From: Sporisorium sorghi
Lineage: Eukaryota > Basidiomycota > Ustilaginomycetes > Ustilaginales > Ustilaginaceae
Length of the DNA: 64,000 nucleotides
Assembly (NCBI GenBank): GCA_023212695.1
Contig: JALCCG010000041.1
Coordinates: forward strand, 47,116 to 111,115
Reading direction: 5' to 3'
Of this stretch, positions 23,735 through 39,403 are shown in pieces. The notes beneath the pieces are model-generated. The model did not search any database and was not told the origin of the DNA. It saw only the letters and a list, made by a program, of their open reading frames with translations. How positions within the stretch are numbered: position 1 is the stretch's first letter; each line of letters opens with the position of its first letter. The translations under genes and the position numbers were made by a program.

Positions 23735-23784
23735 TTTAGAGTAATAGAGCAGGTCATTATGTAGAAGAAACCTCGTCTCATGGG

Positions 23785-23816
23785 AGCCACTCGCTTATAA
23801 GCGGGTGGCTTTTTTC
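23785..23816 (+). terminator. Intrinsic terminator after the HAD gene
   Basis: AGCCACTCGCTT/AAGCGGGTGGCT stem with a six-T run. Confidence 0.93.
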
Positions 23817-23948: not shown

Positions 23949-24050
23949 AATAGTCAAAATGGCAGAATTTTGGAGAGTGCAAAATAGCGATTTCTATATA
24001 TAATTAATCCGACAGAGTTACTTTAAATAACATAAACCCGATAAAATCTA

Positions 24051-24114
24051 TTGACTGCAAAGAATGCGTCTGATATTTTTTAAATAATATTAAATCATTA
24101 TTATATATTGATAA
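24051..24114 (+). promoter_or_regulatory. Promoter and AT-rich motif of the ergothioneine-type catabolic operon
   Basis: TTGACT (24051-24056), 17 bases, TATTTT (24074-24079) with an extended TGA before it. Immediately downstream lie AATAATATT (24083-24091) and TTATTATATATTGATAA (24098-24114), which recur almost unchanged at the transporter promoter near 32600, so they are a candidate shared operator. Confidence 0.6.
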
Positions 24115-24130
24115 TTTGGAGGTTGAGGAC

Positions 24131-25768
24131 ATGACAGGGATCACGGCTGCGAGAGGCACCGAGCTGCGCTGCAAAGGCTGGAGACAGGAAGCTTTGCTGC
24201 GCATGCTCGAGAATGTGCTGGAAAATGGCGAGAATCAGAAGGAGCTGACAGTCTATGCGGCTTTGGCGAAGGCAGCTCGCAACTGGGGCTCTTATCATGC
24301 CATTGTGGATACGCTCAAGAACCTGGAAGAGGAAGAGACCTTGGTCATTCAGTCCGGCAAACCTATCGGCATCATGCGAACGCATAAATACGCCCCGATT
24401 GTGATCATGGCTAACTGCAATATGGTTGGCAAATGGGCGACAAGCGATCAATTTTATAAATTTCAGGAGCAGGGGTTAATCGTCTGGGGCGGACTGACTG
24501 CAGCCGCTTGGCAGTACATTGGTTCCCAGGGCGTCATTCAAGGGACGTATGAAATCTTCCAATCGATTGCAAGGATGCATCTTGACGGACAACTGGCAGG
24601 ACGTTTCGTTCTGACGGCTGGCCTGGGCGGAATGGGGGGTGCCCAACCGCTGGCGGGAACGATGGCCGGAGCAGCCATCCTCTGTGTGGAAGTATCCGAA
24701 GCCCGTGTGGATAAACGAATCGAAGTGGGGTATCTGCAGCGCAAGACGGCTGATTTGGACGAAGCGTTGTCCTGGATTGAGGAGGCGGTGAGCCGTAAGG
24801 AGAGCCTCTCGGTCGGCCTTATCGGCAATGCGGCAGAGGTTTATCCGGAGCTGATCCGAAGAGGGGTCCAGCCGGATATCGTGACAGACCAGACATCGGC
24901 GCATGACCTGCTGTATGGCTATATTCCGGCTGGGTACACGCTCGAACAGGCAGCGGAGCAGCGATTAGCGAATCCAGCCCGACTGCAGCAGGACGCGGGC
25001 GCATCCATCGCGCGCGAGGTCGAGGCGATGCTCGCTTTTCAGGAGCGCGGAGCGATTGTGTTCGATAACGGCAATAACATTCGGACCCAGGCGGTTCAAT
25101 ATGGCGTGGAGAATGCCTTCGATATTGTGGTGTTCACGGAGGGCTTCTTGAGACCGCTATTTGCACGCGCGATCGGTCCCTTCCGGTGGGTGGCGCTCAG
25201 CGGCAATGTGGAGGATATCCGCAGAATTGACGAATACATTCTGGAATTCTTCCGGGATAACGAGATCGCGGTGAACTGGATCAAGCTGGCGAATCAATAC
25301 GTTCCGGTAGAAGGGCTGCCAGCCCGCATCGGCTGGTTCGGACATGGCGACCGCACGAAGCTGGCACTGGCGGTGAACGAGATGGTCGCGCGCGGAGAAC
25401 TGAGCGGTCCGGTGGCCTTCTCCAGGGATCATCTGGATGCTGGAGCCATGGCGCACCCTAACATCATGACGGAGAACATGAAGGACGGAAGCGACGCTAT
25501 TGCGGATTGGCCGCTGCTCAATGCCATGCTGAACTGCTCATCAATGGCTGACCTCGTTGCGATTCACTCCGGGGGCGGCGGCTACAGCGGCTACATGACA
25601 AGCGCGGGTGTCACCATTGTTGCAGACGGGACAGAGGATGCAGCCTTGAGACTGAAGACAACGCTGGATAATGATACCAGCCTCGGCGTATTGCGTTATG
25701 CTGACGCCGGATATGAGGAATCGCTGGATGAAATCCAGCAGAAGGGCATCCGCCGCATCGATACGTAA
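24131..25768 (+). CDS. Urocanase-family enzyme, probable thiourocanate hydratase
   Basis: A 545-residue cytosolic NAD-dependent hydratase of the HutU family. The NAD-binding and core motifs are intact (IQSGKPIGI, LTAGLGGMGGAQPLA, GLIGNAAEVYPELI, DIVTDQTSAHD, FDNGNNIR, RDHLDAGAM, KDGSDAIADWPLLNA). Key urocanase positions differ: the active-site Cys of P. putida HutU (GLPARICW) is Gly401 here (GLPARIGW), and the HHGGGVG loop is HSGGGGYSG. Thiourocanate hydratase of Burkholderia is known to be urocanase-like yet inactive on urocanate, and the neighbours fit that role. GGAGG precedes ATG 24131; the TTG fifteen bases earlier overlaps it. First gene of the operon. Confidence 0.8.
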   Translation: MTGITAARGTELRCKGWRQEALLRMLENVLENGENQKELTVYAALAKAARNWGSYHAIVDTLKNLEEEETLVIQSGKPIGIMRTHKYAPIVIMANCNMVGKWATSDQFYKFQEQGLIVWGGLTAAAWQYIGSQGVIQGTYEIFQSIARMHLDGQLAGRFVLTAGLGGMGGAQPLAGTMAGAAILCVEVSEARVDKRIEVGYLQRKTADLDEALSWIEEAVSRKESLSVGLIGNAAEVYPELIRRGVQPDIVTDQTSAHDLLYGYIPAGYTLEQAAEQRLANPARLQQDAGASIAREVEAMLAFQERGAIVFDNGNNIRTQAVQYGVENAFDIVVFTEGFLRPLFARAIGPFRWVALSGNVEDIRRIDEYILEFFRDNEIAVNWIKLANQYVPVEGLPARIGWFGHGDRTKLALAVNEMVARGELSGPVAFSRDHLDAGAMAHPNIMTENMKDGSDAIADWPLLNAMLNCSSMADLVAIHSGGGGYSGYMTSAGVTIVADGTEDAALRLKTTLDNDTSLGVLRYADAGYEESLDEIQQKGIRRIDT

Positions 25769-25867
25769 GCCGTATGTGCCGGAGAGCCTGCATGACTTAT
25801 GGAACAAGCAAGGTAGGGTAAGCCCTGCGGAATGAACACTAAATTCGTGAAATCGAGAAGGAGACCT

Positions 25868-26965
25868 ATGATGCGTGAATTAACGATAGCGGACGTCAGA
25901 GCAGCCGTGAGAGGTGGCTCGGTATTTGCATCCGGCGGAGGCGGATGGGTGGACCATGGACTGGAGATCGGCGGAGCCGCGGTTGGAATTGGTCGACCGA
26001 AGCTGGTATCGGTGGATGAACTGCCAGATGATGCCATCATCATCACGACAACAGCCATCGGTGCCCCGGCGGGCAGGGAGTGGGAGATGTGGGGAGTCGA
26101 CTACATTAAGGCAGTCCAACTGCTCATGGATAACTATGAAGGCAAGGTGGTCGGCGTTATGACGCCGCAGAACGGCATGTCCAGCACGATTAATGGCTGG
26201 CTGCCTGCAGCGGCTCTCGGTTTGGTTGTCGTGGATGCAACGGGCGATATCCGTGCTCATCCTACCGGCAAAATGGGGTCCATGGGCCTTGCCTCAAGAA
26301 CCGATTATGAAACCATTCAAGTGGTGGTTGGCGGACGCAGAGATACGGGCTCTTACCTGGAGCTTGTCGTCAAGGGCACACCTGCAAAAACTTCGAATAT
26401 TCTGCGCACAGCCTCGGATATGTCCGGAGGATTCATCGCTTCCGCACGGCATCCTCTGCCGGCCTCTTACATTAAAGAGCATGCAGCCATTGGCGGCATT
26501 TCCATTGCCCTCGATTTGGGATATGCGATGTTGGAGGCGGAAGCGCAAGGACCGGAGGCTGTTATGGAGGCGGTCAGCCGCAAAACCCAAGGCCGGTATA
26601 TCGGAAGAGGCCAGGTCTTGAAGAAGGATGTGCATTATTCCGGTGCATTTGATATCGGTACGATTACGATGGAGGACGGAGGCGGCAATGAATTGACGCT
26701 TCATGTCATGAACGAATATATGGCGGTGGACGATCAAGAGGGGCAGCGTCTGACAACATACCCTGATGTGATCACGACATTCGAGGCAGCCACAGGCCTG
26801 CCGGTGAGTGTTGGCGGGGTGAAGGAGGGCATGGAGATTGCGCTCTTCGCGATTGACAAGCAGTACGTGCCGCTAAGCTCCAGTGTGAAGGACCATTCGG
26901 TGTATCCGGAAGTAGAGCAGGCGCTCGGCATTCCGCTGGCGGTGTACGGTCTCAAGGGCATCTAA
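25868..26965 (+). CDS. DUF917 (S-Me-THD) family protein, probable thiohydantoin desulfurase
   Basis: A 365-residue protein of the DUF917 family (PF06032), which as I recall has been renamed S-methyl-thiohydantoin desulfurase. The N-terminal domain has the glycine-rich FASGGGGWVDHGLEIG, then a Rossmann-like series (VISV.. ITTTAIGAP, VGVMTPQNGMSS, GLVVVDATGD); the C-terminal half is beta-rich (AFDIGTITMEDGGGNELTLHVMNEYM). In the proposed route it removes sulfur from the thiohydantoin-propionate made by the hydratase, giving hydantoin-5-propionate. AGAAGGAGA precedes a double ATG at 25868, so the in-frame upstream ATG 25832 is unlikely. It lies 99 bases after the hydratase gene. Confidence 0.75.
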   Translation: MMRELTIADVRAAVRGGSVFASGGGGWVDHGLEIGGAAVGIGRPKLVSVDELPDDAIIITTTAIGAPAGREWEMWGVDYIKAVQLLMDNYEGKVVGVMTPQNGMSSTINGWLPAAALGLVVVDATGDIRAHPTGKMGSMGLASRTDYETIQVVVGGRRDTGSYLELVVKGTPAKTSNILRTASDMSGGFIASARHPLPASYIKEHAAIGGISIALDLGYAMLEAEAQGPEAVMEAVSRKTQGRYIGRGQVLKKDVHYSGAFDIGTITMEDGGGNELTLHVMNEYMAVDDQEGQRLTTYPDVITTFEAATGLPVSVGGVKEGMEIALFAIDKQYVPLSSSVKDHSVYPEVEQALGIPLAVYGLKGI

Positions 26966-27020
26966 GGTAGGTATTTCACACGAAATAGACCACGAACATT
27001 TGTAAAAGAGGGTGCTCGGT

Positions 27021-28604
27021 ATGTTGTATGAGATGGAATCAATTCCGTCCGGATTCCGTTTGGATCCGCTCTTGCCGGTTGTAAGGCTGGATGGAGCCTC
27101 CTTATCAATTGAGGCGCTGGAGAAAGTCGCGAAGCAGGGATACGGCGTGGAGCTTGCTGAAGAAGCGGTCCGCCGTGTAGAGGAAGGATATCAATTGCTG
27201 GGTGAGCTTGTCTCCTCCGGGATTCCGATCTATGGCGTGAACCGGGGGGTAGGACTCAATAAGGACCGTGAGATTACCCGTGAGCAGAGCGAAGCCTTTA
27301 ATCGGAGACTGCTTCGCTCCCATGCCTCTGCGGTGGGTCCATATGCAGGGGAGGAACAGGTGAGAGCCATCATGACGGCGAGACTCAATTCGCTCTTGGC
27401 GGGTGCTTCCGGCATGCAGCCGGCGGCTCTGTTCATGTACAGAGACTTCCTTAATGCCAGGATTCATCCCTTGGTGCCCCTCCGGGGCTCCGTAGGCGCG
27501 GCGGATATCTCCGTATTGTCCCATGTTGGTCTGGCGATGCTTGGGGAAGGAGAGGTGTTGTTCGGAGGAGAGGTGATGCCGGCGCTTCAGGCGCTTCAGG
27601 CAGCCAATCTGTCTCCCGTCACGCTGATTCAGAAGGATGGACTCGCCATAGTCAGCTCCAATGCCCTCTCGTCTGGCTTAGGCGCCCTGGTGCTTGGTGA
27701 AGTGAAGCGTCTGCTGCGCACGGCCGATTCCATCTTTGCGTTATCGCTGGAAGGGATCGACGGGACGACCAGTCCGCTGGACCCTGCCGCTCACCGGGTT
27801 CGTCCGCTGGAGGGTGCGGCCGACAGTGCCGCCTATGTCAGGCGCTGCCTAAAGGGCGGAGCGATTATGGGGCAGTCGACGGAGCAAAAAACCGGCAGGA
27901 TCCAGGATCCGCTGAGCTTTCGCAGCGCATGCCATATCCATGGCGCAGCGCGGGATGCCCTGCGTTATACGGAGCAGCAGCTGCTGCTCCACCTGAACGC
28001 ATCCGATGATAACCCGAGCCTTGATCTGGAAGGCCGCCGAATGGTACCCAGCTCGAATTTCGATGTCACGTCGTGGGTGCTGGCTTTTGAGATGCTGGCC
28101 ATTTCGCTCAGTCATGTCTCGAAATCATCCTGCTATCGTTCCATCAAGCTGGGCACGCCGGAGGTAACGGGCCTCAGCCGGTTCCTGACCCCAACTCCCG
28201 AGAGCATAGCCTTCAGCACTATGCAAAAGACCTATACCTCACTCGATGCGGAAATCCGGCTGTTGGCCAATCCCGTGTCCATGGATTACTTCTCCCTTGC
28301 AGGAGATATCGAGGATCATGCAACCAACGCTCCGCTGGTGGTCCGGAAGCTCGGGGACATTGTCGAGCTGTTATCCAACATTCTTGGCATGGAGGCCCTT
28401 CATGCCGCTCAGGCAGTGGATCTTCGCGGGAATGTTCAGTCCTTGGGCGAGGGGACGGCCTGCATTTACCGGGCTATTCGGGATGTGGTGCCGCCGCTCA
28501 CCGAGGACCGGGTCCTGACCCCGGACATTCAGGCGATGGCCGAACGAATTCGAAGCGGCGGCATCATTTTTGATACCGGTACGGAATCGGAAGAAGAGGT
28601 TTAG
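27021..28604 (+). CDS. Histidine ammonia-lyase paralogue lacking the MIO triad, probable ergothionase
   Basis: A 527-residue protein of the HAL/PAL fold: YGVNRGVG (71-78), LRGSVGAADIS (154-164), a large helical core and C-terminal QKTYTSLDAEIRLLANP. The MIO cofactor forms from Ala-Ser-Gly in GSVGASGDLAPL; here that tripeptide is Ala160-Ala161-Asp162, so no MIO can form and normal ammonia-lyase chemistry is excluded. Ergothionases split trimethylamine from ergothioneine by acid/base catalysis and are about this length. Next to the urocanase paralogue and DUF917 gene, ergothionase is the best reading. ATG 27021 has AGAGGGTG at good spacing; GTG 27012 overlaps it. Confidence 0.78.
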   Translation: MLYEMESIPSGFRLDPLLPVVRLDGASLSIEALEKVAKQGYGVELAEEAVRRVEEGYQLLGELVSSGIPIYGVNRGVGLNKDREITREQSEAFNRRLLRSHASAVGPYAGEEQVRAIMTARLNSLLAGASGMQPAALFMYRDFLNARIHPLVPLRGSVGAADISVLSHVGLAMLGEGEVLFGGEVMPALQALQAANLSPVTLIQKDGLAIVSSNALSSGLGALVLGEVKRLLRTADSIFALSLEGIDGTTSPLDPAAHRVRPLEGAADSAAYVRRCLKGGAIMGQSTEQKTGRIQDPLSFRSACHIHGAARDALRYTEQQLLLHLNASDDNPSLDLEGRRMVPSSNFDVTSWVLAFEMLAISLSHVSKSSCYRSIKLGTPEVTGLSRFLTPTPESIAFSTMQKTYTSLDAEIRLLANPVSMDYFSLAGDIEDHATNAPLVVRKLGDIVELLSNILGMEALHAAQAVDLRGNVQSLGEGTACIYRAIRDVVPPLTEDRVLTPDIQAMAERIRSGGIIFDTGTESEEEV

Positions 28605-28651
28605 AGTTGTTCCAGTTCGTGCAATCGCATCATAAGGGAGGATTAGAAGAG

Positions 28652-30016
28652 ATGAAGGATCGGTTGGATCTGGTTGTATACGGCAATGTGGTGCTGCCGG
28701 AAGGTGTCTGTCATAACACGTATCTCGGCATAAAAAACGGCGTCATCGTAAGTATTGGTGATTTGGGCCCGGACGTTGTCCGGGAAGCTTCCCGGTATGT
28801 GGATGCTGCCGGTCAGTACGTTCTGCCGGGTGCGGTGGATGCTCATGTGCATTGCTATAGCTCGCTGGATGAGGGATTCACTCATGCCACTCGCGCCGCT
28901 GCGGCGGGCGGGGTGACGACCATTATTGAGATGCCTTATGATGCGACGGGCATGATCTGTACACGGGAAGCTTTTGAAGAGAAGAGGGAACGGCTGGAAC
29001 AGGAGTCCGTGGTGGACGTGGCGATGCTGGTCACCATACACAAGCAGGACGGATACGACGATATACGGCAGCTCGCTGAAGCCGGTGCTTGCGGCTTCAA
29101 GGTCTCGATGTTTAATACGGATTCCTTCCGTTTTCCCCGGATCGATGACGGCCAGTTGCTGGATTCCTTTGCCGTCATTGCAGACACCGGCTGTCCCGTC
29201 GGGGTGCATGCCGAGAACGACGAGATCGTGCGCCGATACATTGGAAAATTCCAATCGAGCGGGAGTGATCCGCGCTCGCATGGCTGGAGCAGACCGAGGG
29301 TTAGCGAGTCCACTGCGGCGCTGACAGCGATGGAGCTTGCCTTGGAGACCGGCGCGAAGCTGCATTTGTACCATTGCACGTATCCGCGAATTCTCAATCT
29401 GGTGGAGATGTATCGGGAGATGGGAGCCAGGGTGACAGCGGAGACCTGCACGCATTACCTGACGCTGTCCGAGGAGGACATGCCAAGACTCCATGCCAGA
29501 GCCAAAATCAATCCGCCGCTGCGAACGCCTGGTGACGTCGAGGGTTTATGGGAGCTTGCCGCGGCAGGGAGAATCGACATGATTACCTCCGATCATGCGC
29601 CATGGCTTCTGGAACGCAAGCGTCATGAGGATATATTCCAGAATTCATCCGGTGCGCCCGGCGTGGAGCAGCTGCTCCCGATCCTGTACAGCGAAGGGGT
29701 GGCTAGAGGGCGACTCTCCCTGCTGGAGCTGGTCTCGCTGATTAGCGAGCGGCCGGCAAGGGTGTTTGGACTGGGTCATCGCAAGGGCCGCATCGCGGAG
29801 GGCTACGATGCCGATCTGGTCATTCTCGATCCTCATGCGTCTTGGGTGCTGGATGAAGACAAGCTGCATTCCAGTGCAGGCTGGAGTCCATATCACGGAA
29901 TGAGGATGCAGGGTAAGATCATGTTCACTATGGTCCGCGGCGTGACCGTCTATGAGAACCATGTGGTTACAGGTCAACCGGGGCACGGTAGCTTTGTTCG
30001 TGCAGATCATCGATAA
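28652..30016 (+). CDS. Cyclic amidohydrolase (hydantoinase/allantoinase family)
   Basis: A 454-residue metal-dependent TIM-barrel hydrolase. Metal ligands are visible: DAHVH (HxH), a Lys in CGFKVSMFN where carboxylated Lys is expected, GVHAEN, LYHCTY and SDHAPW with the catalytic Asp. It has the usual beta-sandwich ends of dihydropyrimidinases and allantoinases. In context it should open hydantoin-5-propionate to N-carbamoyl-glutamate. AAGGGAGG stands ten bases before ATG 28652; the in-frame TTG 28607 has no site. It is 47 bases after the lyase gene. Confidence 0.85.
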   Translation: MKDRLDLVVYGNVVLPEGVCHNTYLGIKNGVIVSIGDLGPDVVREASRYVDAAGQYVLPGAVDAHVHCYSSLDEGFTHATRAAAAGGVTTIIEMPYDATGMICTREAFEEKRERLEQESVVDVAMLVTIHKQDGYDDIRQLAEAGACGFKVSMFNTDSFRFPRIDDGQLLDSFAVIADTGCPVGVHAENDEIVRRYIGKFQSSGSDPRSHGWSRPRVSESTAALTAMELALETGAKLHLYHCTYPRILNLVEMYREMGARVTAETCTHYLTLSEEDMPRLHARAKINPPLRTPGDVEGLWELAAAGRIDMITSDHAPWLLERKRHEDIFQNSSGAPGVEQLLPILYSEGVARGRLSLLELVSLISERPARVFGLGHRKGRIAEGYDADLVILDPHASWVLDEDKLHSSAGWSPYHGMRMQGKIMFTMVRGVTVYENHVVTGQPGHGSFVRADHR

Positions 30017-30046
30017 AATGGCGAAAGCGATGGAAGGAGATGGAAT

Positions 30047-31327
30047 ATGGCAGGGGAGATGGATAGCTTGAAACCCGATTTGAAGCGTTTGACTTCGGAT
30101 ATCGAAGTGCTGTCATCATTCAGCGACCCTTCCAAGCCAGGCTGGACCCGAAGACCGTTCACATCCTGGTATGAATCCAGCAGGCAATGGCTGGCGGGAC
30201 AGATGCAAGAAGCCGGGCTTGAGGTGAGTTTGGACGCAGCCTCGAACCTCATTGGGCGTTTGCCCGGCTTGAATCCGGCGCTGCCGCCGATCATCATCGG
30301 TTCCCACACCGATACGGTTAACGGGGGCGGGCGATTTGACGGGATTATCGGCGTCGCAGGGGGTTTGGAGATCGCAAGGCTATTGAAGGAATCGGGAGCA
30401 AGGTTGCAGCATACCTTAGAGATTGTTGATTTTACAGCAGAGGAGCCCAGCGAATTCGGAATATCCACGATTGGAAGCCGGGGAATGGTGGGGACGCTGA
30501 CGGAAGCGATGATGAACAAGCAGGACCCGAACGGCTTGCGGCTGCGCGATGCGTTGGATGCCATCGGGGGAAGAAGTACCGACGTGGCAGCCGAGGCCAG
30601 AAAACCGGGATCAGCCGCTCTCTATCTGGAGCTGCACATTGAGCAGGGGCCTGTGCTCGAGGAGACCGGCCATACGTTAGGAGCAGTGACGGGCATTGTC
30701 GGCATCCACCGCTACCGGATGAGAGTGACGGGCAAACCGAATCATGCGGGAACTACGCCGATGCATATGCGCAGAGACGCGCTGGCAGGATTCAGCGAGA
30801 TCTGCCTTGCCTTGGAGCGGCACTGCCGTGCCTATGGAGAGCGCCTTGTCGGCACCATAGGCAGAATATTCAATGAGCCGAATGCCTCTAATGTCATACC
30901 GGCGGAAGTGATCTTCGAGCTGGAGATTCGATCGCTGGAGCCGCAATTGTCGGAAGAAGTGTACGGAGCATTCGTGAACGAGGCATACGTCATTGCAGCA
31001 CGGCGCCAGTTGGATCTGGCGGAAGAGCTGTTGTCGAGGTCGGAGCCGGTGCACGTAGCAGCCGAGGTGCTGGAGCTGATCGAGCACAGCTGCGCCCGTG
31101 TGGCTCCCGTGATGAAGCTGCCGAGCGGTGCAGGACATGACGCGAATCAATTGGCACGAATTGCGCCGATCGGGATGATATTTGTTCCGAGCCGGGACGG
31201 AAGAAGCCATTGTCCCGAAGAGTGGACGGATGAGGATCAGGTTGTTGCAGGTGTTGAAGCTCTGGCTCTATCGATGCTCCGTTATGACCAATTATACGGG
31301 GACGTGCAGATTCATGTTTCTGAATGA
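30047..31327 (+). CDS. M20 family N-carbamoyl-L-amino acid/allantoate amidohydrolase (copy 1)
   Basis: A 426-residue di-metal hydrolase of the HyuC/AmaB/AllC group. Metal and catalytic motifs: IGSHTDTVNGGGRFDG, FTAEEPSEFG, LHIEQGPVLEETG, NHAGTTPMHMRRDA in the dimerisation lid, and GAGHDAN. The expected reaction here is N-carbamoyl-glutamate to glutamate, CO2 and ammonia. GGAAGGAGA precedes the ATG, 30 bases after the hydantoinase. A second, different copy follows with overlapping ends. Confidence 0.85.
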   Translation: MAGEMDSLKPDLKRLTSDIEVLSSFSDPSKPGWTRRPFTSWYESSRQWLAGQMQEAGLEVSLDAASNLIGRLPGLNPALPPIIIGSHTDTVNGGGRFDGIIGVAGGLEIARLLKESGARLQHTLEIVDFTAEEPSEFGISTIGSRGMVGTLTEAMMNKQDPNGLRLRDALDAIGGRSTDVAAEARKPGSAALYLELHIEQGPVLEETGHTLGAVTGIVGIHRYRMRVTGKPNHAGTTPMHMRRDALAGFSEICLALERHCRAYGERLVGTIGRIFNEPNASNVIPAEVIFELEIRSLEPQLSEEVYGAFVNEAYVIAARRQLDLAEELLSRSEPVHVAAEVLELIEHSCARVAPVMKLPSGAGHDANQLARIAPIGMIFVPSRDGRSHCPEEWTDEDQVVAGVEALALSMLRYDQLYGDVQIHVSE

Positions 31328-32567
31328 AGGCATGAAGGTTAATGGTGATCGACTCTGGCGGACGATTGTGGAATTGGGGGAAATCGGGGGAAACGGGCAT
31401 GGGGGTGTCACCCGCCTGTCCCTTAGCCAAGAGGAGCTTCTGGGCAGAAGCTACATCGCTTCATTGATGGAGGAAGCCGGGTTAGAGGTCCGGCGGGATG
31501 AGGCGGGCAACGTCATTGGACGCTTGCCAGGTCCGAAGCCCGAAGCCCCGGTCGTTGTCACCGGCTCCCACATAGACACCGTTCGGGAGGGCGGGCGTTT
31601 CGACGGCGCACTGGGTGTGCTTGCCGGCATTGAAGTACTGCGTACCATGAAGGAACAGGGGCTCGCTCATCACCGACCGCTGGAAGTGATTTGTTTTACG
31701 GATGAAGAAGGCGTCCGCTTCGGCACCGGATATTTGGGAAGCCGGGCGTTGGTGGGGCAATGGAATGATGCGTGGCTGTCTCTTACGGATCAGGACGGGG
31801 TCACGCTTCGTCAAGCCATGGCCGGGGCAGGTTTATCGCCGGCTGATGCAGCCTTCGCAAGGCGGAGGCCTGAGGATGTTCATGCCTATGTGGAGCTGCA
31901 CATCGAGCAAGGCCGTGTGCTGGAGCATCTGGGACTCCAGGTGGGGATTGCCACCGCTATCTATGGACACCGATGGCTGAGCATCACCATAAAAGGGCAG
32001 GCCGACCACGGCGGTACTACGCCCATGGAAATCCGCCGCGATGCAATGGCTGCCGCGTCGGAAGCTATTCTTCGTATCGAGCAGAGCGCTATTGACCATG
32101 GCGGGGTAGCTACGGTAGGGAACCTTCAGGTCAAGCCGGGCTCGATCAACGTCATTCCGGGTGAAGTGACTTTTACCGTAGATGTGCGTCATGGGGAGGG
32201 GCATGGCCTGAACCGATTGGCTTCAGAGATTGAGGCGGCCGTCGCTGAGTGTGCAGGCAGGCGTGATGTTGCTGTCAGCATCACCGTGACGGATGCCGAT
32301 GAACCGGTGCAGGCATCGGAACATATCATCGGTGTGATTCAGGAGGCCTGCAAGGAAGCAGGATATGCTTCCTTCATGATGAACTGCGGTGCAGGCCATG
32401 ATGCGGTAGCGATGCATGCCGTAACCGACATAGGCCTCATCCTGGTACGTTCAAAGGATGGAATCAGCCATCATTCGGCAGAGTGGAGCACGCCTGAGGA
32501 TTGCGTGGCAGGTGCCAATGTCCTTTTGCACACTTTATACGCTCTATCCCATTCATTAATAACATAA
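31314..32567 (+). CDS. M20 family N-carbamoyl-L-amino acid amidohydrolase (copy 2)
   Basis: A 417-residue paralogue with the same motifs as copy 1 (TGSHIDTVREGGRFDG, FTDEEGVRFG, LHIEQGRVLEHLG, DHGGTTPMEIRRDA, GAGHDA), but clearly diverged along its whole length, so it is not a recent duplicate. The start at 31314 overlaps the end of copy 1 by 14 bases; ATG 31332 is the alternative. Having two carbamoylases suggests two substrates (for instance N-carbamoyl-glutamate and another carbamoyl or ureido acid) or dimer partners. Last gene before the transporter promoter. Confidence 0.83.
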   Translation: MFLNEGMKVNGDRLWRTIVELGEIGGNGHGGVTRLSLSQEELLGRSYIASLMEEAGLEVRRDEAGNVIGRLPGPKPEAPVVVTGSHIDTVREGGRFDGALGVLAGIEVLRTMKEQGLAHHRPLEVICFTDEEGVRFGTGYLGSRALVGQWNDAWLSLTDQDGVTLRQAMAGAGLSPADAAFARRRPEDVHAYVELHIEQGRVLEHLGLQVGIATAIYGHRWLSITIKGQADHGGTTPMEIRRDAMAAASEAILRIEQSAIDHGGVATVGNLQVKPGSINVIPGEVTFTVDVRHGEGHGLNRLASEIEAAVAECAGRRDVAVSITVTDADEPVQASEHIIGVIQEACKEAGYASFMMNCGAGHDAVAMHAVTDIGLILVRSKDGISHHSAEWSTPEDCVAGANVLLHTLYALSHSLIT

Positions 32568-32573
32568 TTCCGA

Positions 32574-32632
32574 TTGACATAATAGGATATATAGTTTAAT
32601 AATATTGGTAAATTGTTATTATTAATTGATAA
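32574..32632 (+). promoter_or_regulatory. Promoter and shared motif upstream of the OpuC-type transporter
   Basis: TTGACA (32574-32579), 17 bases, TAATAA (32597-32602): a strong sigma-A promoter. TTAATAATA (32596-32604) and TATTATTAA (32617-32625) form an inverted repeat over the -10. AATAATATT (32598-32606) plus TTATTATTAATTGATAA (32616-32632) match the motif at the first operon promoter at 24 of 26 bases. Confidence 0.65.
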
Positions 32633-32654
32633 ATCGATGAAAGGGGGAGGCAGA

Positions 32655-33296
32655 GTGGACGTTCTCGTTGGTGCTTATGAGTATGTCGTGGCGAATAGCG
32701 ACCGGTTCCTGGAGGCATTGAAGGTTCATGTCACTATCAGCCTGTACGCCCTGCTTATCGCGGCCGTTCTATGTATACCGCTTGGCATTATATGCGCGAA
32801 GAAGCAGTGGCTGACAGGGCCGATTATGGGATTGTTCAACTCGCTTCGCGTCATTCCGAGCCTGGCTGTGCTTATCATTATTTTGCCGCTGATGGGGACG
32901 GGCTTCGGTCCGGCGTTAATCGCGTTGACGCTGCTTGCCTGTCCGCCCATCTTGATTAACACCTATATGGGCTTTCGTACGATTGAACCATCCATCGTCG
33001 AGGCTGCTGCAGGAATCGGGATGGGGCCGCGCACCATACTGCGCAAGATCGAGCTTCCACTGGCACTGCCGCTCCTCTTGTCGGGCCTTAAGACCGCAAC
33101 GGTGGAGGTTGTTGCCAGTGCGACGCTGGCGGCTTTTATCGGAGGAGGCGGACTTGGGACGTTTATCATCAATGGTCTTGGGATGTACAACTTCTCGCTG
33201 CTGCTCGTAGGGGCGATACCGGTTGCTGCGCTGGCCATTTTCTCGGAAGTCAGTTTTGCCTGGATCGAAAGATCTGTTACCAAATACGCCCGCTAA
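32655..33296 (+). CDS. OpuC-type ABC transporter permease 1
   Basis: A 213-residue permease with five to six membrane helices and the BPD family signature EAAAGIGMGPRTILRKIELPLALP (EAA loop). It is of the ProW/OpuCB type that moves quaternary amines. The GTG at 32655 follows AAAGGGGGAGG; upstream in-frame codons lack a site. First gene of a four-gene importer and preceded by its own promoter. Confidence 0.88.
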   Translation: MDVLVGAYEYVVANSDRFLEALKVHVTISLYALLIAAVLCIPLGIICAKKQWLTGPIMGLFNSLRVIPSLAVLIIILPLMGTGFGPALIALTLLACPPILINTYMGFRTIEPSIVEAAAGIGMGPRTILRKIELPLALPLLLSGLKTATVEVVASATLAAFIGGGGLGTFIINGLGMYNFSLLLVGAIPVAALAIFSEVSFAWIERSVTKYAR

Positions 33297-33318
33297 AGCG
33301 GGAGAGGAGTCCATGAAT

Positions 33319-34224
33319 ATGAAAAAGAGATTGTCCCTGATGTTAACCGTATTGATTGGCGCAGCGATGCTCGTCAGCGCATGCTCGGGAAGCGGAGGCA
33401 GTTCGGGCAAGCCGGTAGTGAAGGTGGGGTCCAAGAACTTTACCGAATCCCTGATTCTTGGGGAGATGTATGCTGTTGCATTGGAGCAGAAGGGTTACAA
33501 GGTAGACCGCAAGCTGAATCTTGGAGGCACCCTGGTTGCGCATGAAGCGCTGAAGAGCGGCGAGATCGACTTCTATCCCGAGTATACGGGGACGGGCCTT
33601 ATCAACGTGCTGGAGCTTCCTCCCAAATCCGATGCCCAGGTTGTATATGACGAAGTATCCCAAGGGTATAAGGATAAATTCAACCTGATCTGGCTCGAGC
33701 CGACGGATGCAAACGATTCCCAGGGTCTTGTGACAACGAAGAAGATTGCAGAGCAGTACAATCTGTACAAAATCTCTGACCTTCCGAAGCTCGCTCCTGA
33801 ACTGAATCTGGCTGCTGTGCCTGAATTTGAAGAGCGCGAGGATGGCTTGAAGGGCCTTAACGCCTTCTACGGACAGATGGACTTCAAGAGCATCAAGCTG
33901 TTTGATTACGGGATTAAATACCGCGTCATTCTGGACGGAGAAGCGGATGTAACGGTTGGCTTCACAACCGACGGCGACCTGACCAATCCGGATCTTGTGC
34001 TGCTGGAGGACGATCAGAAGTTCTGGCCGCCTTATTATGTAGCTCCGGTTATCCGCGGAGAGTTGAATGAACAGGATCCCGAAATTGCCAAAATCCTGAA
34101 TGAAGTCTCCTCGAAGCTCGACAACGAAACCGTTCAGAAGCTGAACGCACAGGTTGATATCGACAAGAAGGAATACGCCGACGTGGCGAAGGCCTTCCTG
34201 GAAGAGCAAGGCTTGTTGAAATAA
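33319..34224 (+). CDS. OpuAC/ProX-type substrate-binding lipoprotein
   Basis: An approximately 302-residue lipoprotein with signal peptide and lipobox LVSAC, then the quaternary-amine-binding fold: KVGSKNFTESLILGEMYAVALEQKGYKVDRKLNLGG, DFYPEYTGTGLINVL, and a second lobe ending in KEYADVAKAFLEEQGLLK. Members bind betaine, choline, carnitine and, in the EgtU branch, ergothioneine. Context points to ergothioneine or its S-methyl form; the aromatic cage cannot be checked without a structure. GAGGAG precedes ATG 33313 (3 bases) and 33319 (9 bases); I take the latter. Confidence 0.85.
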   Translation: MKKRLSLMLTVLIGAAMLVSACSGSGGSSGKPVVKVGSKNFTESLILGEMYAVALEQKGYKVDRKLNLGGTLVAHEALKSGEIDFYPEYTGTGLINVLELPPKSDAQVVYDEVSQGYKDKFNLIWLEPTDANDSQGLVTTKKIAEQYNLYKISDLPKLAPELNLAAVPEFEEREDGLKGLNAFYGQMDFKSIKLFDYGIKYRVILDGEADVTVGFTTDGDLTNPDLVLLEDDQKFWPPYYVAPVIRGELNEQDPEIAKILNEVSSKLDNETVQKLNAQVDIDKKEYADVAKAFLEEQGLLK

Positions 34225-34309
34225 GCACGCCCTGTCATGACAGCATTTGAAATCGATCGTGTTCTGTATTGCCGGCGTCAGGGCCGGTGCCTAAGGAGTG
34301 GATGAATGA

Positions 34310-35272
34310 ATGAGTAAATCAGCAATCGTGTTTGATGGAGTGTCGAAAACGTTCCCGAAGGCCTCCAAGCCGTCGGTCAACGAAACGAGTCTCGTCATTG
34401 ATCAAGGGTCGTTCGTCACGATACTAGGGGCCTCTGGCTGCGGCAAGACAACATTATTAAAAATGGTAAACCGAATTATCGAGCCCACTTCGGGTACGAT
34501 CTCGATCTTTGGCAAGGATATCCGGCAGCAGCCGCTCACGGAGCTGCGCCGCAGCATCGGCTATGTCATCCAGCAGATCGGTCTGTTCCCGCACATGACC
34601 ATTGAGCAGAATATTGCGGCCGTGCCGCATATTCTCGGATGGGATCGGGGCCGCGTTGAAGCGAGGGTGAAGGAGCTGCTGGAGCTGGTCCATCTGCCCG
34701 AGAGCTTCAGGAACCGGTATCCTCGCCAATTATCGGGTGGACAGCAGCAGCGTGTAGGCATTGCCCGGGCGATGGCCGGCGATCCGGAGGTGCTGCTCAT
34801 GGACGAACCGTTTGGCGCCATTGATGCCATTACCCGGGCCAGACTGCAGGATGACCTGAGGGACATTCAGAAACGGCTGGGCAAGACGATTTTATTTGTC
34901 ACACATGATATCGATGAGGCGCTCAAATTGGGTGACCAGATGATTGTCATGAACGAAGGGTCCATCCAGCAGTATGACAAACCACTGGCGATTCTGGACA
35001 ACCCGGCCAATGAATTTGTATCCAGGCTGGTGCAGTCCGAAGATTTATTTCAGCGGCTGCAGCTGGTCCAGGCAGGAGACAGCATGGAGCCACTGGTTGA
35101 GGATGCCCCTGAGGGCTATCCCCGCATCACCGCCGACAGCAGCATGAAGGAGGCGCTTCAGCTTCTGCTTCAGCATCATGGCCGCTCGCCTTATGTGGTT
35201 GTCATCGATGGGGAGGGGCAGGAGATCGGCAAAATTACGATGAATGAACTGTCCTTGGTCGGAGGCCGCTAA
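34310..35272 (+). CDS. OpuCA/ProV-type ABC transporter ATPase
   Basis: A 320-residue ATPase with Walker [11 protein letters not shown]-loop, signature LSGGQQQR, Walker [10 protein letters not shown] and switch His in FVTHD. The C-terminal region (about 240-320) is a single CBS-like module ([31 protein letters not shown]), shorter than the tandem CBS of OpuCA, so ionic-strength gating may differ. AAGGAGTGG precedes the ATG. Its stop overlaps the next permease start by one base. Confidence 0.9.
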
Positions 35273-35916
35273 TGGGAATCGGAGAATATTTTGCCCGATA
35301 TTACGGAACGCTGTTCTCGGCATTGATCGAGCACTGCACGATGACCTTAATCTCGCTGGCGATTGCTTCAGCCATCGCACTTCCAGTTGGATATTGGCTG
35401 TCCCGTCACCGTAAAATAGCCGTTCCTGTTCTGTCCGTGCTTGGCATCGTTTACGCCATTCCCAGCCTGGGGATGTTTGCGCTGCTGATCCCGCTGGTAG
35501 GCCTCGGCTTTAAATCGGCCATCATTGCGCTGGTCGTATACAGTCAATTGATCCTTGTGCGCAACGTGATTGCGGGATTTCAGTCCATCGACCCGTCAAT
35601 CATTGAGGCGGGAGCCGGCATGGGATACAGCAAGTGGCAGCTGTTTCGGAAGATTGAACTGCCGCTTGCGACCCCTGTCATCATCGGCGGACTTCGGATT
35701 GCTTCGGTATCCATAATCGGTATCGCCACGATTGCAGCCTGGATCAATGCCGGGGGACTTGGCGTGATTCTGTTCGAGGGTCTGTACCAGAGCTCGGTTC
35801 CCAAGATGGTATGGGGAACGATGTTGGTTTCGCTGCTGGCCATCCTGGTCAATATGGCACTGCTTAAGGTGGAGAAAATATCAATGTTAAAGGCACGCGG
35901 CGAATGGCGCATGTGA
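35272..35916 (+). CDS. OpuC-type ABC transporter permease 2
   Basis: A 214-residue permease paralogous to permease 1, with the EAA loop EAGAGMGYSKWQLFRKIELPLATP and about five to six helices. The start overlaps the ATPase stop (TAATG), so translation is coupled. Two different permeases would form a heterodimeric channel, as in OpuB/OpuC. Confidence 0.88.
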   Translation: MGIGEYFARYYGTLFSALIEHCTMTLISLAIASAIALPVGYWLSRHRKIAVPVLSVLGIVYAIPSLGMFALLIPLVGLGFKSAIIALVVYSQLILVRNVIAGFQSIDPSIIEAGAGMGYSKWQLFRKIELPLATPVIIGGLRIASVSIIGIATIAAWINAGGLGVILFEGLYQSSVPKMVWGTMLVSLLAILVNMALLKVEKISMLKARGEWRM

Positions 35917-35955
35917 TATAATGATCACGAAATTGCTGATGACCGAGGTGCTAAT

Positions 35956-36699
35956 ATGAATGGAACACAAACGTTAGGACGTGCGATTGATATTTTATTT
36001 GTGCTCGCAGAGTCAGGCTCCACCCTTACCGTCAGCGAGATTGCGGAGAAGGTGGGAATTCCGGACAGTACGGCCTATCGTTTCATCCAAACGCTCATCA
36101 AGAACGGATTTGTCGAGCGAAAGGGCAGAGGGCAGATCGGCCTTGGCCTTCGTATCTTCGACTTGGCCAGAAGTTTATCCCAGCAGATTGAACGTGATCT
36201 GTTAACTGTGGCGAGACCGATTATGGAGGCATTATCCGATGACACGGGAGAAACCACGGTATTATTCATCCGCTCCGGATCGAAGGCCATCTGTATAGAG
36301 CATGTGACAAGCAAGCGGCTGATCCGGTTCTCGATCGAAAGCGGAAGGGTATTGCCGCTTGCTTCCGGTGCCTCCGGCAAGTCACTGCTTGCGTTTGAGA
36401 GCGAGCGGGTGCTCAAGGAGATGCTGAAGCTGTTCGGAGAGAAACAATCCGAGGAGACCCGCCTTCAACTTGTGAAGGAGCTGGAAGCCATCCGAGAGCA
36501 GGGATATTCGCTTACGCTGGGCGAGGTGGATAGTGACGTATTTGCCATTGCGGCACCGATATTCGATCCTCAGCAGAACATCATGGCCAGTCTCTCCGTT
36601 GCAGGACCGGTTCACCGGCTGAATGAGGATGATATTCCGGCTCTCATTGATCAGGTGAAGAATGCCGCCTCGCGGATTTCCGTCAAGCTTGGCGGGTAG
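35956..36699 (+). CDS. IclR-family transcriptional regulator
   Basis: A 247-residue regulator with an N-terminal winged helix (residues 1-75: TLTVSEIAEKVGIPDSTAYRFIQTLIKNGFVERKGRGQIGLGLRI) and a C-terminal IclR effector domain (about 85-247: DDTGETTVLFIRSGSKAICIE, FSIESGRVLPLASGASGKSLLAF, LGEVDSDVFAIAAPIFD). It closes the catabolic block 39 bases after the permease and is the obvious candidate regulator of both promoters. GAGGTG precedes the ATG. GTGAT...ATCAC flanks a TATAAT just upstream and may be its own promoter and operator. Confidence 0.88.
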   Translation: MNGTQTLGRAIDILFVLAESGSTLTVSEIAEKVGIPDSTAYRFIQTLIKNGFVERKGRGQIGLGLRIFDLARSLSQQIERDLLTVARPIMEALSDDTGETTVLFIRSGSKAICIEHVTSKRLIRFSIESGRVLPLASGASGKSLLAFESERVLKEMLKLFGEKQSEETRLQLVKELEAIREQGYSLTLGEVDSDVFAIAAPIFDPQQNIMASLSVAGPVHRLNEDDIPALIDQVKNAASRISVKLGG

Positions 36700-36730
36700 G
36701 GAAGAGGCACAATTCCATATAATCGCTGTA

Positions 36731-36761
36731 AAGCTGTCGAGTCCAACTCGGCAGCTTTTTT
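36731..36761 (+). terminator. Intrinsic terminator after the IclR gene
   Basis: AAGCTGTCGAGT/ACTCGGCAGCTT stem with six T residues; closes the catabolic block. Confidence 0.92.
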
Positions 36762-36896: not shown

Positions 36897-38084
36897 ATGG
36901 CCACTTATGAGTATTATAAAGAGATATTCGCGGAAGTCCCGAGGCCGTTCGCCTTGGTGGATCTGGACATGCTGGACGACAATGCAAGGGCCATTGCAGG
37001 GGCTGCAGGGGGCAAAAGGGTGCGGCTGGCAAGCAAGTCGATCCGTTCTGTGGACGTGCTGAGCCGTATTCTTGCTTCAAGCCCGATCTATCAAGGGATC
37101 ATGTGTTATACGGCGGCAGAAGCAGCTTTTTTGGCGGAGCACGGCTTCGACGACCTTCTGCTTGGGTATCCGCAGTGGCAGCCGGAAGCGATTCGAACCT
37201 TGATGAACCGGGTAAGCGAAGGCCGCTCGATTACCTTGATGGTCGATAGCGTCGAACATGTTGAGCACGTGGAACAACTTGCCAGACAAGAGGGAACCGT
37301 TATGCCGCTGTGCATTGACCTGGATATGTCGGTCCAATATCCCGGCCTGCATTTCGGTGTGTGGCGATCGCCCGTCCATTCGTGGGAGGGCATGTACCCG
37401 ATTGTAGAACAGATAATCCACTCCCCCTGGCTTTCTCTGGATGGCATCATGGGATACGAGGCGCAGGTGGCAGGCGTAGGCGATAATGCAGCCGGAAAGT
37501 ACCTGAAGAATAAAACGGTCCGGTGGCTGAAGAGACGCTCCATCGTCGAAGCCGCCAAGCGCAGGAAGGAAGTTGTGGAGCGGCTGATGGCCATGGACCT
37601 TCGGCTTCGCTTCGTGAATGCAGGAGGAACCGGCAGTATGGAGAGCTCCAGGGAGGAAGCATGGGTAACCGAAATTACGGCAGGCTCGGGTTTCTATGCG
37701 CCGGGCTTGTTTGACCATTATGCTTCTTTCCGTTATCAACCGGCAGCAGCTTATGCCGTAGAGGTGGTGCGTTTCCCGAAGGCAGGGATCGTGACGTGTA
37801 TGGGCGGCGGATACACGGCATCCGGCACAGCGGATGCGGATAAGCTGGCAAAGCCTTATTTGCCTTCAGGATTGAAACTGTTCGCGCTGGAAGGCGCCGG
37901 GGAGGTACAGACGCCGCTGCGCTTGCCTGCGCATGTAGAGCTTAAACCGGGAGAACCGGTGTTCTTCCGCCATGCGAAGGCAGGCGAGCTGTGCGAGCGG
38001 TTCAAGGTGCTGCATGCGGTCTCGCAGGGCCGTATTGTGGGTGAGTATGCTACCTATCGCGGAATGGGAGCGTGTTTTCTATGA
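36897..38084 (+). CDS. Alanine-racemase-fold PLP enzyme (amino acid deaminase/aldolase type)
   Basis: A 395-residue fold-type III PLP protein. The N-terminal barrel has the PLP lysine region RLASKSIRSVDVLSRIL (Lys about 47), then GIMCYTAAEAAFL, and a glycine-rich phosphate loop NAGGTGS; the C-terminal beta domain includes VEVVRFPKAGIVTCMGGGYTASG and VFFRHAKAGELCERF. Related enzymes are D-threonine aldolases and D-serine deaminases; the exact reaction is not readable. The stop overlaps the ATG of the lactone-oxidase pseudogene by four bases (ATGA), so the two were once co-translated. It starts after a GAGGG site, 136 bases past a terminator. Confidence 0.8.
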   Translation: MATYEYYKEIFAEVPRPFALVDLDMLDDNARAIAGAAGGKRVRLASKSIRSVDVLSRILASSPIYQGIMCYTAAEAAFLAEHGFDDLLLGYPQWQPEAIRTLMNRVSEGRSITLMVDSVEHVEHVEQLARQEGTVMPLCIDLDMSVQYPGLHFGVWRSPVHSWEGMYPIVEQIIHSPWLSLDGIMGYEAQVAGVGDNAAGKYLKNKTVRWLKRRSIVEAAKRRKEVVERLMAMDLRLRFVNAGGTGSMESSREEAWVTEITAGSGFYAPGLFDHYASFRYQPAAAYAVEVVRFPKAGIVTCMGGGYTASGTADADKLAKPYLPSGLKLFALEGAGEVQTPLRLPAHVELKPGEPVFFRHAKAGELCERFKVLHAVSQGRIVGEYATYRGMGACFL

Positions 38085-39403
38085 AGCAGGCCCAGTGGTC
38101 GAATTGGTCGGGAACGGTACGAGCCAATCCAAGAACGGTGCTTCACCCTACCTCCACGCAGGAAGTCGTAAAGATTGTGCAGATGTGCAGACAGGCGGCT
38201 GCGAGTGGTCGGTTCAGGGCATTCGTTTACCCCCATTGCGGCATCGGAGGATTGTGTGGTCTCCCTGGACGGCATGCAGGGGCTGGTCCATGTGGACGCA
38301 GAAGGTTTAACAGCCACCGTCTGGGCGGGAACGAAGCTGAAGCTGCTGGGTGAGCTGCTGTTTCAGCATGGGCTGGCTCAGGAGAATTTGGGCGATATCG
38401 ATGTGCAATCCATCGCAGGCGCCATTAGTACGGGGACGCATGGTACGGGCCGGACCTTCGGGAATATCTCAACGCAGGTTGTCGGATTTACGGTAGTCAC
38501 GGGTACGGGCGAGGTGCTTGAATGCAGCCGGGAGTCACACCCGGATTGGTTCCGGGCGCTCCAGGTATCCTTGGGAACACTCGGAATTATCGTTCAAGTT
38601 ACGTTGAGGCTTGAGCAGGCCTATCGGATCGAATACGAGAGCAGGCGAGTGACACTGGATGAATGCTTGAAGCAGCAGGCCCGATTAGCTGAGGAGAATC
38701 GCCATTTCGAATTCTACTGGTTTCCTTATGCGGAGCCGTGCCAGATCAAGCTGATGAACAAGACGGATCAAGAGGCGAAGGAGCATCGGATCAAGGATTA
38801 CTTTAATGGAACGCTGGTGGAGAACACCCTCTTCGGCCTGATCTCGGAGCTGTGCCGTAAGCTGCCCAAAGCAAGTCCCTATGTAAGCCGCTTCTCTGCG
38901 TCACAAGTGCCGCTCGGACGCAAAGTGAATCACAGCCATCGTTTGTTTGCAACCCAGCGGCTCGTTCGATTTAACGAAATGGAGTACAACCTTCCCGTGG
39001 AGGCCATGAATGCGGTCATCGAAGATATGCGTGAGGAGCTGTCGCGCAGTAAATTCCATGTGCATTTTCCTGTGGAATGCCTTATGCCAAAGGCGACGAT
39101 ATTTGGTTAAGTCCCGCATATGGCCGGGATTCGGCCTACATTGCGGTTCATATGTACAAAGGCATGCCGCATGAGGACTATTTTGAGGCGATGGAGCGCA
39201 TCTTTCTCCGTTATGGTGGTCGTCCGCATTGGGGCAAAATGCATTCCCTTGAGGCTGCGCAGTTGAAGGAGCTGTATCCGATGTGGGACGCATTCCTTGC
39301 GGTTCGGGAGGAGCTGGACCCGGATGGCGTATTATGGAGTGATTATACGGGAAGGCTGTTCGGTTCATCCGGCGCTGTCTTCAACAACTTGCTTTTTCTT
39401 TGA
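38081..39403 (+). pseudogene. FAD-linked lactone oxidase (ALO/gulonolactone-oxidase type), frameshifted
   Basis: The coding region is spread over three frames. The N-terminal 38 codons (from ATG 38081) read WSNWSGTVRANPRTVLHPTS, as in this family. At about 38195-38205 the similarity jumps one frame to LRVVGSGHSFTPI, the FAD-binding core, and continues with GDIDVQSIAGAISTGTHGTG. At about 39078-39083 it returns to the first frame with YAKGDDIWLSPAYGRDSAYIAVHMYKG and the ALO C terminus. The two shifts cancel: total length is 1323 bases, exactly 441 codons. No start-to-stop reading exists, so it is a pseudogene or contains two sequencing errors. Intact members oxidise aldonolactones or related polyols. 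Confidence 0.85.

Follow-up and report, generated by a model that had tools for sequence, protein, structure and literature searches.

The 64,000-nucleotide stretch of DNA analysed here (the window; contig JALCCG010000041.1, positions 47,116 to 111,115, deposited under Sporisorium sorghi) carries an island of eleven genes in which predicted enzymes of ergothioneine breakdown stand beside a betaine-family ABC transporter. We consider it likely, with a good deal of confidence, that these genes form a single import-and-degrade regulon switched by an IclR-family regulator through two 17-bp palindromes. The chemistry predicted for the island is that of an already known pathway, since curated models, trees and solved relatives all match ergothioneine-breakdown enzymes. 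What appears to be new, as far as sequence comparison can tell, lies around that chemistry: a predicted importer outside the EgtU family that is linked to the desulfurase, a palindrome present at two sites, and the same palindrome before a paralogous binding protein with a putative split lyase next to it.

Gene content and proposed operation of the island

The eleven genes (24131-36699) all lie on the forward strand between two long terminator-like hairpins. We set the ends of the island by these hairpins and not by the number of terminator-like sites, because the total found in the scan (11) is near the shuffle mean (9.2). The first-pass annotation had already described the gene set, its order, its shared direction and the closing terminator, and all of this is borne out by the open reading frames, Pfam, NCBIfam and the hairpin scan. 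The start that it gives for the island, 24051, coincides with the -35 box of a weak promoter match. The region has 12 promoter-like sites, which is near chance (shuffle mean 9.7), and a TTGAC box recurs across aligned hydratase leaders. The internal promoter match and the palindromes that follow both promoters had been overlooked. At gathering score, Rfam gave no match within 20000-41000. The features are as follows, all on the forward strand (+).

23782..23813, +: terminator-like hairpin closing the upstream gene (14 pairs, T tail)
24017..24031, +: possible nitrogen-control site of GlnR/TnrA type (core GTNA-N7-TNAC)
24051..24079, +: promoter-like site ahead of the catabolic genes (TTGACT-17-TATTTT, 9/12)
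24098..24114, +: predicted operator 1, palindrome TTATTATATATTGATAA (perfect site, conserved before the hydratase)
24131..25768, +: predicted thiourocanate hydratase, urocanase-like (NCBIfam model, PDB 7ned match, tree)
25871..26965, +: predicted thiohydantoin desulfurase, DUF917 / S-Me-THD-like superfamily (NF058529; Pfam S-Me-THD_N and _C)
27021..28604, +: ergothionase-type trimethylamine lyase, HAL-like, without the MIO triad (6s7j best match, tree)
28652..30016, +: hydantoinase, predicted hydantoin-5-propionate hydrolase of a third ErtD subtype (ErtD models are the best two matches)
30047..31327, +: predicted N-carbamoyl-L-glutamate amidohydrolase ErtE, M20 (NF058540)
31332..32567, +: second M20 carbamoylase (below the ErtE cut-off; best PDB match 3n5f)
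32574..32603, +: internal promoter-like site of the transporter genes (TTGACA-18-AATAAT, 11/12, the region's best)
32616..32632, +: predicted operator 2, palindrome TTATTATTAATTGATAA (perfect site)
32655..33296, +: ABC permease 1 (start GTG 32655 after GGGGGAGG, or ATG 32637)
33313..34224, +: OpuC/ProX-type substrate-binding protein, predicted non-EgtU ergothioneine binder (Pfam, PDB matches, linkage)
34310..35272, +: ABC ATPase, ProV-like (TIGR01186 315 bits, below the cut-off of 327)
35272..35916, +: ABC permease 2 (Pfam)
35956..36699, +: IclR-family regulator, predicted palindrome binder (Pfam; no named IclR equivalog reached)
36730..36758, +: terminator-like hairpin closing the island (13 pairs, T tail)

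In the mechanism that we propose, the transporter would import ergothioneine and the ergothionase-type lyase would take off trimethylamine to leave thiourocanate, which the hydratase would convert to thiohydantoin propionate. The DUF917-type desulfurase would then swap sulfur for oxygen and free sulfide, the hydantoinase would open the ring, and a carbamoylase would yield glutamate, CO2 and ammonia. The position of a palindrome just 3' of each predicted promoter suggests that the IclR protein may act as a roadblock repressor of both transcripts until an inducer (ergothioneine or thiourocanate) is present. The GlnR/TnrA-like site would add nitrogen control. A five-step bacterial route of ergothioneine catabolism was reportedly reconstructed in vitro by Beliaeva, Leisinger and Seebeck in 2021, and the window has predicted counterparts of the same five enzymes: ergothionase, thiourocanate hydratase, thiohydantoin desulfurase, hydantoinase and carbamoylase.

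Predicted enzymes of the pathway

Relatives of the island were collected by scanning genome contigs for matches to the DUF917 protein, and the best 80 of 358 loci were kept (45 Firmicute loci and 35 others, the latter proteobacterial by title except L057). All eleven genes occur in the same order at 12 of the 80 loci. Ten of them, without the second carbamoylase, do so at L012, which brings the syntenic loci to 13; their titles name Paenibacillus, Cohnella, 'Bacillus' FJAT strains and one metagenome bin. Such conservation of gene order is more than chance.

The hydratase scores 1016 on NF058530, the model of thiourocanate hydratase (cut-off 930), and its best PDB match is 7ned, at 983 bits. 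This solved chain is labelled urocanate hydratase in the PDB; over a 204-residue stretch it shows 100% identity to the Paenibacillus sp. Root444D2 (L027) hydratase, a protein that scores 1023 on the same thiourocanate model and lies at a locus with the same enzyme set. The window differs from L027 in its hydantoinase subtype, its extra carbamoylase, its importer and its gene order. In a tree of 29 hydratases, 21 thiourocanate-type rows (including the window) separate from 8 HutU-type rows with a split of 100/100; the 8 were assigned by 49-54% identity, and only the row of L100 was model-tested. The DUF917 protein scores 599 on NF058529, the thiohydantoin desulfurase model (cut-off 440). The first carbamoylase reaches 544 on NF058540 (ErtE; cut-off 520). 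With 424 on ErtE, the second falls below that cut-off, finds its best PDB match in an N-carbamoyl-L-amino acid hydrolase (3n5f), and is extra to the known enzyme set.

The best PDB match of the lyase is 6s7j, the ergothionase of Treponema denticola (448 bits, against 226 for the best histidine ammonia-lyase, HAL). The two share the HAL fold, the absence of the triad that forms 4-methylideneimidazole-5-one (MIO) and a K-D pair; the window's protein is diverged and lies in an operon. In PMC13405746, T. denticola is named for ergothionase and ergothionase is said to lack MIO. At the position of HAL's Ala-Ser-Gly triad the window lyase reads GSVGAADI, and the triad is found in none of the 61 aligned lyases (the window plus 60, the short matches L033 and L072 being omitted). 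K81 of the K-D pair is kept in 60 and D82 in 59 of these 61, and the pair is absent from both HAL chains aligned and from the lyase of L100. This last locus (L100:6695-17000) is a hut-like operon with a lyase above the HutH cut-off (611 > 539), a hydratase above that of HutU (986 > 375) and a transporter of OpuC type that is a relative of the window's. In a tree of 22 lyases the window groups with 6s7j (side support 95/94), while two MIO HALs and the lyase of L100 fall on the other side; the long branches of L065 and L080 are of unsure placement.

The route from ergothioneine to glutamate that the first-pass annotation proposed is therefore well supported by sequence, with the hydratase, the desulfurase and ErtE above equivalog cut-offs and the lyase grouped with 6s7j. 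That annotation had named branching with ordinary histidine-pathway enzymes as a finding that would count against it; in the hydratase and lyase trees the window's proteins branch elsewhere.

The lyases at L013:14340-16055 and L036:17892-19529, together with L014, L035, L037, L039 and L041 (Brevibacillus and Lederbergia-type clusters), are 30-32% like the window's and also have no MIO triad. The L013 and L036 proteins stand with the HAL rows in the tree and not with ergothionase, and lyases of this type have possibly lost MIO independently.

A predicted importer outside the EgtU family

Pfam and PDB matches, EgtUC among the latter, assign the binding protein to the betaine/choline/EgtU group. 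Its pocket positions were assigned by motif anchoring to residues named in PMC9732360, not by alignment to EgtUC. According to that paper, the invariant G244 and an F293 switch (Y-to-F) contribute to the affinity of EgtU for ergothioneine. The window's protein keeps equivalents of E375, R379 and D381 (an EFEERED motif) and of T275, and similar EF...D segments are present in other aligned relatives. It differs from EgtU in having F for G244, Y for F293, Q for the cage residue Y341 and F for Y419. Moreover, the binding protein and two permeases are separate genes in the window, whereas in EgtUV the binding domain is fused to the permease. We rejected EgtU membership on these grounds, that is, two differing affinity determinants and no gene fusion.

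The identity of the ligand thus rests on linkage, since the EgtU determinants and one cage tyrosine are missing. Among 51 genomes from the genus of P. radicis, 8 carry the binding protein at an identity of at least 83%, and the same 8 carry the desulfurase at 87-90%, at a distance of 7.2-7.5 kb (in one of them, G020, only desulfurase residues 1-240 match in a single frame). Of the earlier proposal that an OpuC-type transporter of the EgtUV kind serves the pathway, the tie to the pathway stands, by linkage and a shared predicted operator, and the EgtUV kinship does not.

Binding proteins of this superfamily are common in such surroundings. One lies inside the fetched stretch at 52 of the 80 loci, with at least three pocket types among them. 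We examined five paralogues of the window's protein (53-60% identity): one is in the hut-like operon of L100, one is next to an FMN monooxygenase (L096) and three are by a split lyase. Given the first two, the binding-protein subfamily is not restricted to ergothioneine. As a separate observation, the Firmicute ergothioneine clusters L021 (6880-8238) and L102 (7660-9021) hold a gene that resembles, by eye, the NtaA/DmoA-type FMN monooxygenase of L096, which was the only one of these proteins scanned with models. The gene lies between the importer and the hydratase or desulfurase, and the window's island has none.

A palindrome at two sites

The palindrome TTATYA-N5-TRATAA occurs with up to two mismatches in all 24 hydratase leaders compared (the window and 23 loci), mostly 31-55 bases before the start, while composition shuffles gave a mean of 5.97 and at most 11. 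Within the 64 kb there are exactly two perfect copies (24098-24114 and 32616-32632; shuffle mean 0.01), and the second of these precedes the transporter, directly after the region's best promoter match. The syntenic loci together hold 30 sites that deviate by no more than one mismatch, and 28 of these fall in hydratase and importer leaders. Both sites are present at 13 of 13, one of the 26 (in the L010 hydratase leader) having two mismatches.

At the same threshold of one mismatch, 32 of the 45 Firmicute loci have a site near a cluster gene against 0 of the 35 others, and the IclR homologue follows a similar pattern (41/45 against 0/35). The 35 other loci are richer in G+C (62% vs 49%), which by itself lowers the number of chance palindromes in them. 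In other Firmicute clusters, the same palindrome precedes a different OpuC-type importer. The prediction that importer leaders carry the site was tested on five further stretches, from loci whose importer leader had been truncated or out of view: a perfect copy preceded the ATPase gene in 4/4 informative cases, Root444D2 included, and the fifth stretch (L143), which contained none of the cluster's genes, was not counted. No site with up to one mismatch was found at the non-pathway loci L096, L100 (17 kb) and L101; L103 has one, distant from its transporter.

Taken as a sequence-based prediction, the IclR protein probably binds the palindrome as its operator. Its best named match is BhcR, far below the cut-off. 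Upstream, a GlnR/TnrA-like core (GTNA-N7-TNAC) is present in 12 of 14 leaders, from the window and the 13 syntenic loci, against a shuffle mean of 1.09 and a largest value of 4; this evidence counts for less because the leaders are related. We found no paper on the operon, the regulator or the operator in the open literature, which leaves most subscription journals uncovered and is not proof of novelty. The one open paper with both 'ergothioneine' and 'IclR' is, by its title, on another subject.

Counter-evidence and alternative readings

Several results weigh against the interpretation of the island as one import-and-degrade regulon. Starting with the enzymes, the two ErtD models are the best matches of the hydantoinase, and its scores of 502 and 466 are below their cut-offs (650 and 600). 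Among four relatives, L027 (784 > 650) and L052 (742 > 600) pass, and L003 and L013 fall below the cut-offs like the window, whose protein may represent a third ErtD subtype. Of the 'complete unit' seen by the first-pass annotation, this leaves a candidate for each step, with the hydantoinase step short of its models. The hydratase passes the broad HutU model (706 > 375), though far below its thiourocanate score, and the L100 lyase lacks the MIO triad (GSVGYLTHMAH) yet passes HutH. Loss of the triad is thus not exclusive to ergothionase. With L100 as counterexample, we dropped the absence of the triad as a sole mark of ergothionase and slightly lowered our confidence in the regulon.

On the side of regulation, we derived the motif by eye, from leaders that are related to one another. 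Six genomes contain 34 perfect sites (4-8 per genome), 11 of them at linked loci, which is barely above the 25 for the reversed control. Since the motif alone is not selective genome-wide, the case for it is one of position and conservation. A one-mismatch site also precedes the ATPase gene of L104, another OpuC-type transporter locus. As for the importer, the binding protein has no equivalents of G244, F293 and the cage Y341, the 8 genomes that show the linkage overlap with the 13 syntenic loci and so are no independent evidence, and the surroundings of two paralogues (L100 and L096) suggest that the subfamily also has other ligands.

These last points feed an alternative in which the enzymes degrade ergothioneine and the transporter is a mere neighbour that imports another quaternary amine (glycine betaine, choline or histidine betaine). 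The missing EgtU determinants and the paralogues in the hut-like operon and by the monooxygenase would fit such a neighbour. We nonetheless regard it as rather unlikely: transporter and desulfurase are linked in 8/8 genomes, the transporter has its own copy of the palindrome in the window and at 13/13 syntenic loci, and a different OpuC-type transporter is found under the same palindrome in other Firmicute clusters.

It is less probable still that the regulon serves another 2-thioimidazole, such as free thiohistidine or an oxidised ergothioneine (e.g. the sulfonate), as its physiological substrate. Several precursors could yield thiourocanate, and a reference title in PMC13405746 mentions an ergothioneine sulfonate catabolic pathway in another bacterium. 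However, there would presumably be no need for a thiohydantoin desulfurase if the sulfonate group were released as sulfite, and the nearest solved relative of the lyase is ergothionase.

The first-pass annotation had suggested S-methyl-ergothioneine as the real substrate, with release of methanethiol, and took the DUF917 step as its pointer. The DUF917 protein does belong to the Pfam S-Me-THD superfamily, and there are weaker matches to both S-methyl models. But thiohydantoin desulfurase is a separate NCBIfam model within that superfamily, so a DUF917 step does not imply an S-methyl substrate. Moreover, both diagnostic enzymes pass the non-methyl models and fall below the cut-offs of the S-methyl ones (hydratase 787 < 880 on NF058531, S-methyl thiourocanate; desulfurase 308 < 450 on NF058532, S-methyl thiohydantoin desulfurase), as is also the case for the relatives L027 and L021. 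We therefore discarded S-methyl-ergothioneine, which these two curated models make very improbable.

A histidine-utilisation operon of the ordinary kind, its HutH and HutU having diverged, would share the superfamilies and the HutU match, which thiourocanate hydratases such as that of L027 also reach, but we give it next to no credence and ruled it out, since the hydratase prefers the thiourocanate model to HutU (1016 vs 706, with L100 reversed at 709 and 986), the lyase fails HutH (360 < 539), the hydratase tree separates the window from the HutU-type rows (100/100), and a desulfurase and a hydantoinase replace imidazolonepropionase. The comparison with L100 is instructive here. Each operon holds a lyase without the MIO triad, a hydratase, hydrolases further along and an OpuC-type transporter, the two transporters being related; unlike the window, L100 passes HutH and HutU, has no K-D pair and has no palindrome (up to one mismatch) in 17 kb.

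Putative split-lyase loci

At L097:4821-8664, L098:5195-9041 and L099:8743-12742, a perfect palindrome precedes a binding protein that is 57-59% like the window's, and by it two adjacent genes resemble complementary parts of histidine ammonia-lyase. In the two loci scanned with models (L097 and L098), the pair covers HutH-model positions 3-223 and about 98-503. When the three pairs are aligned, the Tyr loop and the QEDH segment are seen to be retained in the first gene and the QDAxSxR segment in the second, with the MIO triad in neither. The pair was not found in the window's assembly. A bolder picture would join these loci to the island: a second, non-EgtU family of ergothioneine importers would be tied to degradation by one IclR operator, which in sister genomes would also drive the paralogous binding protein next to the two lyase genes, and the regulon would there include an obligate heteromeric lyase with complementary parts of the HAL active site on its two halves. 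We regard this as tentative and on balance doubtful. No obligate heteromeric lyase of that kind turned up, although no literature search was aimed at split lyases.

Origin of the contig and neighbouring genes

The window is the end of a 111,115-base contig in a 23.17-Mb, 469-contig assembly that looks eukaryotic and was flagged for introns. This assembly has 13 actin-family matches, some of them full-length; it is the two strongest (466 and 426 bits) that carry weight, since a control shows that the actin family also matches in bacteria. The window's desulfurase is closest to that of Paenibacillus sp. JCM 10914 (94%, among the best 80 of 358 loci), and the contig probably comes from Paenibacillus, as a contaminant or companion of the eukaryote whose genome was assembled. 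Among the relatives, L057 is titled Bacillus subtilis SK6B4, yet its gene order and identity match Pseudochrobactrum ergothioneine clusters; it is probably a mislabelled or mixed assembly.

Around the island, a Firmicute-type class A beta-lactamase lies at 21115-22053 (NF012167, 459 bits, cut-off 427). Directly after the island, 36897-38084 has a distant match to the 3-hydroxy-D-aspartate aldolase BhcC (57 bits, far below the cut-off). An FAD-linked sugar-lactone oxidase at 38175-39403 is spread over two overlapping frames (38175-39110 and 39077-39403) that match successive parts of one model, which is a frameshift or an assembly error.

Implications

Ergothioneine is a diet-derived antioxidant; its breakdown by microbes influences how much of it is available and produces trimethylamine. 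Should soil Firmicutes take it up by way of other OpuC-type proteins, as the island suggests, EgtU would not be sufficient as the sole marker of uptake. The predicted operator would offer a cheap route to the regulon and to its inducer and any parts still missing, and makes the ligand of the transporter directly testable.

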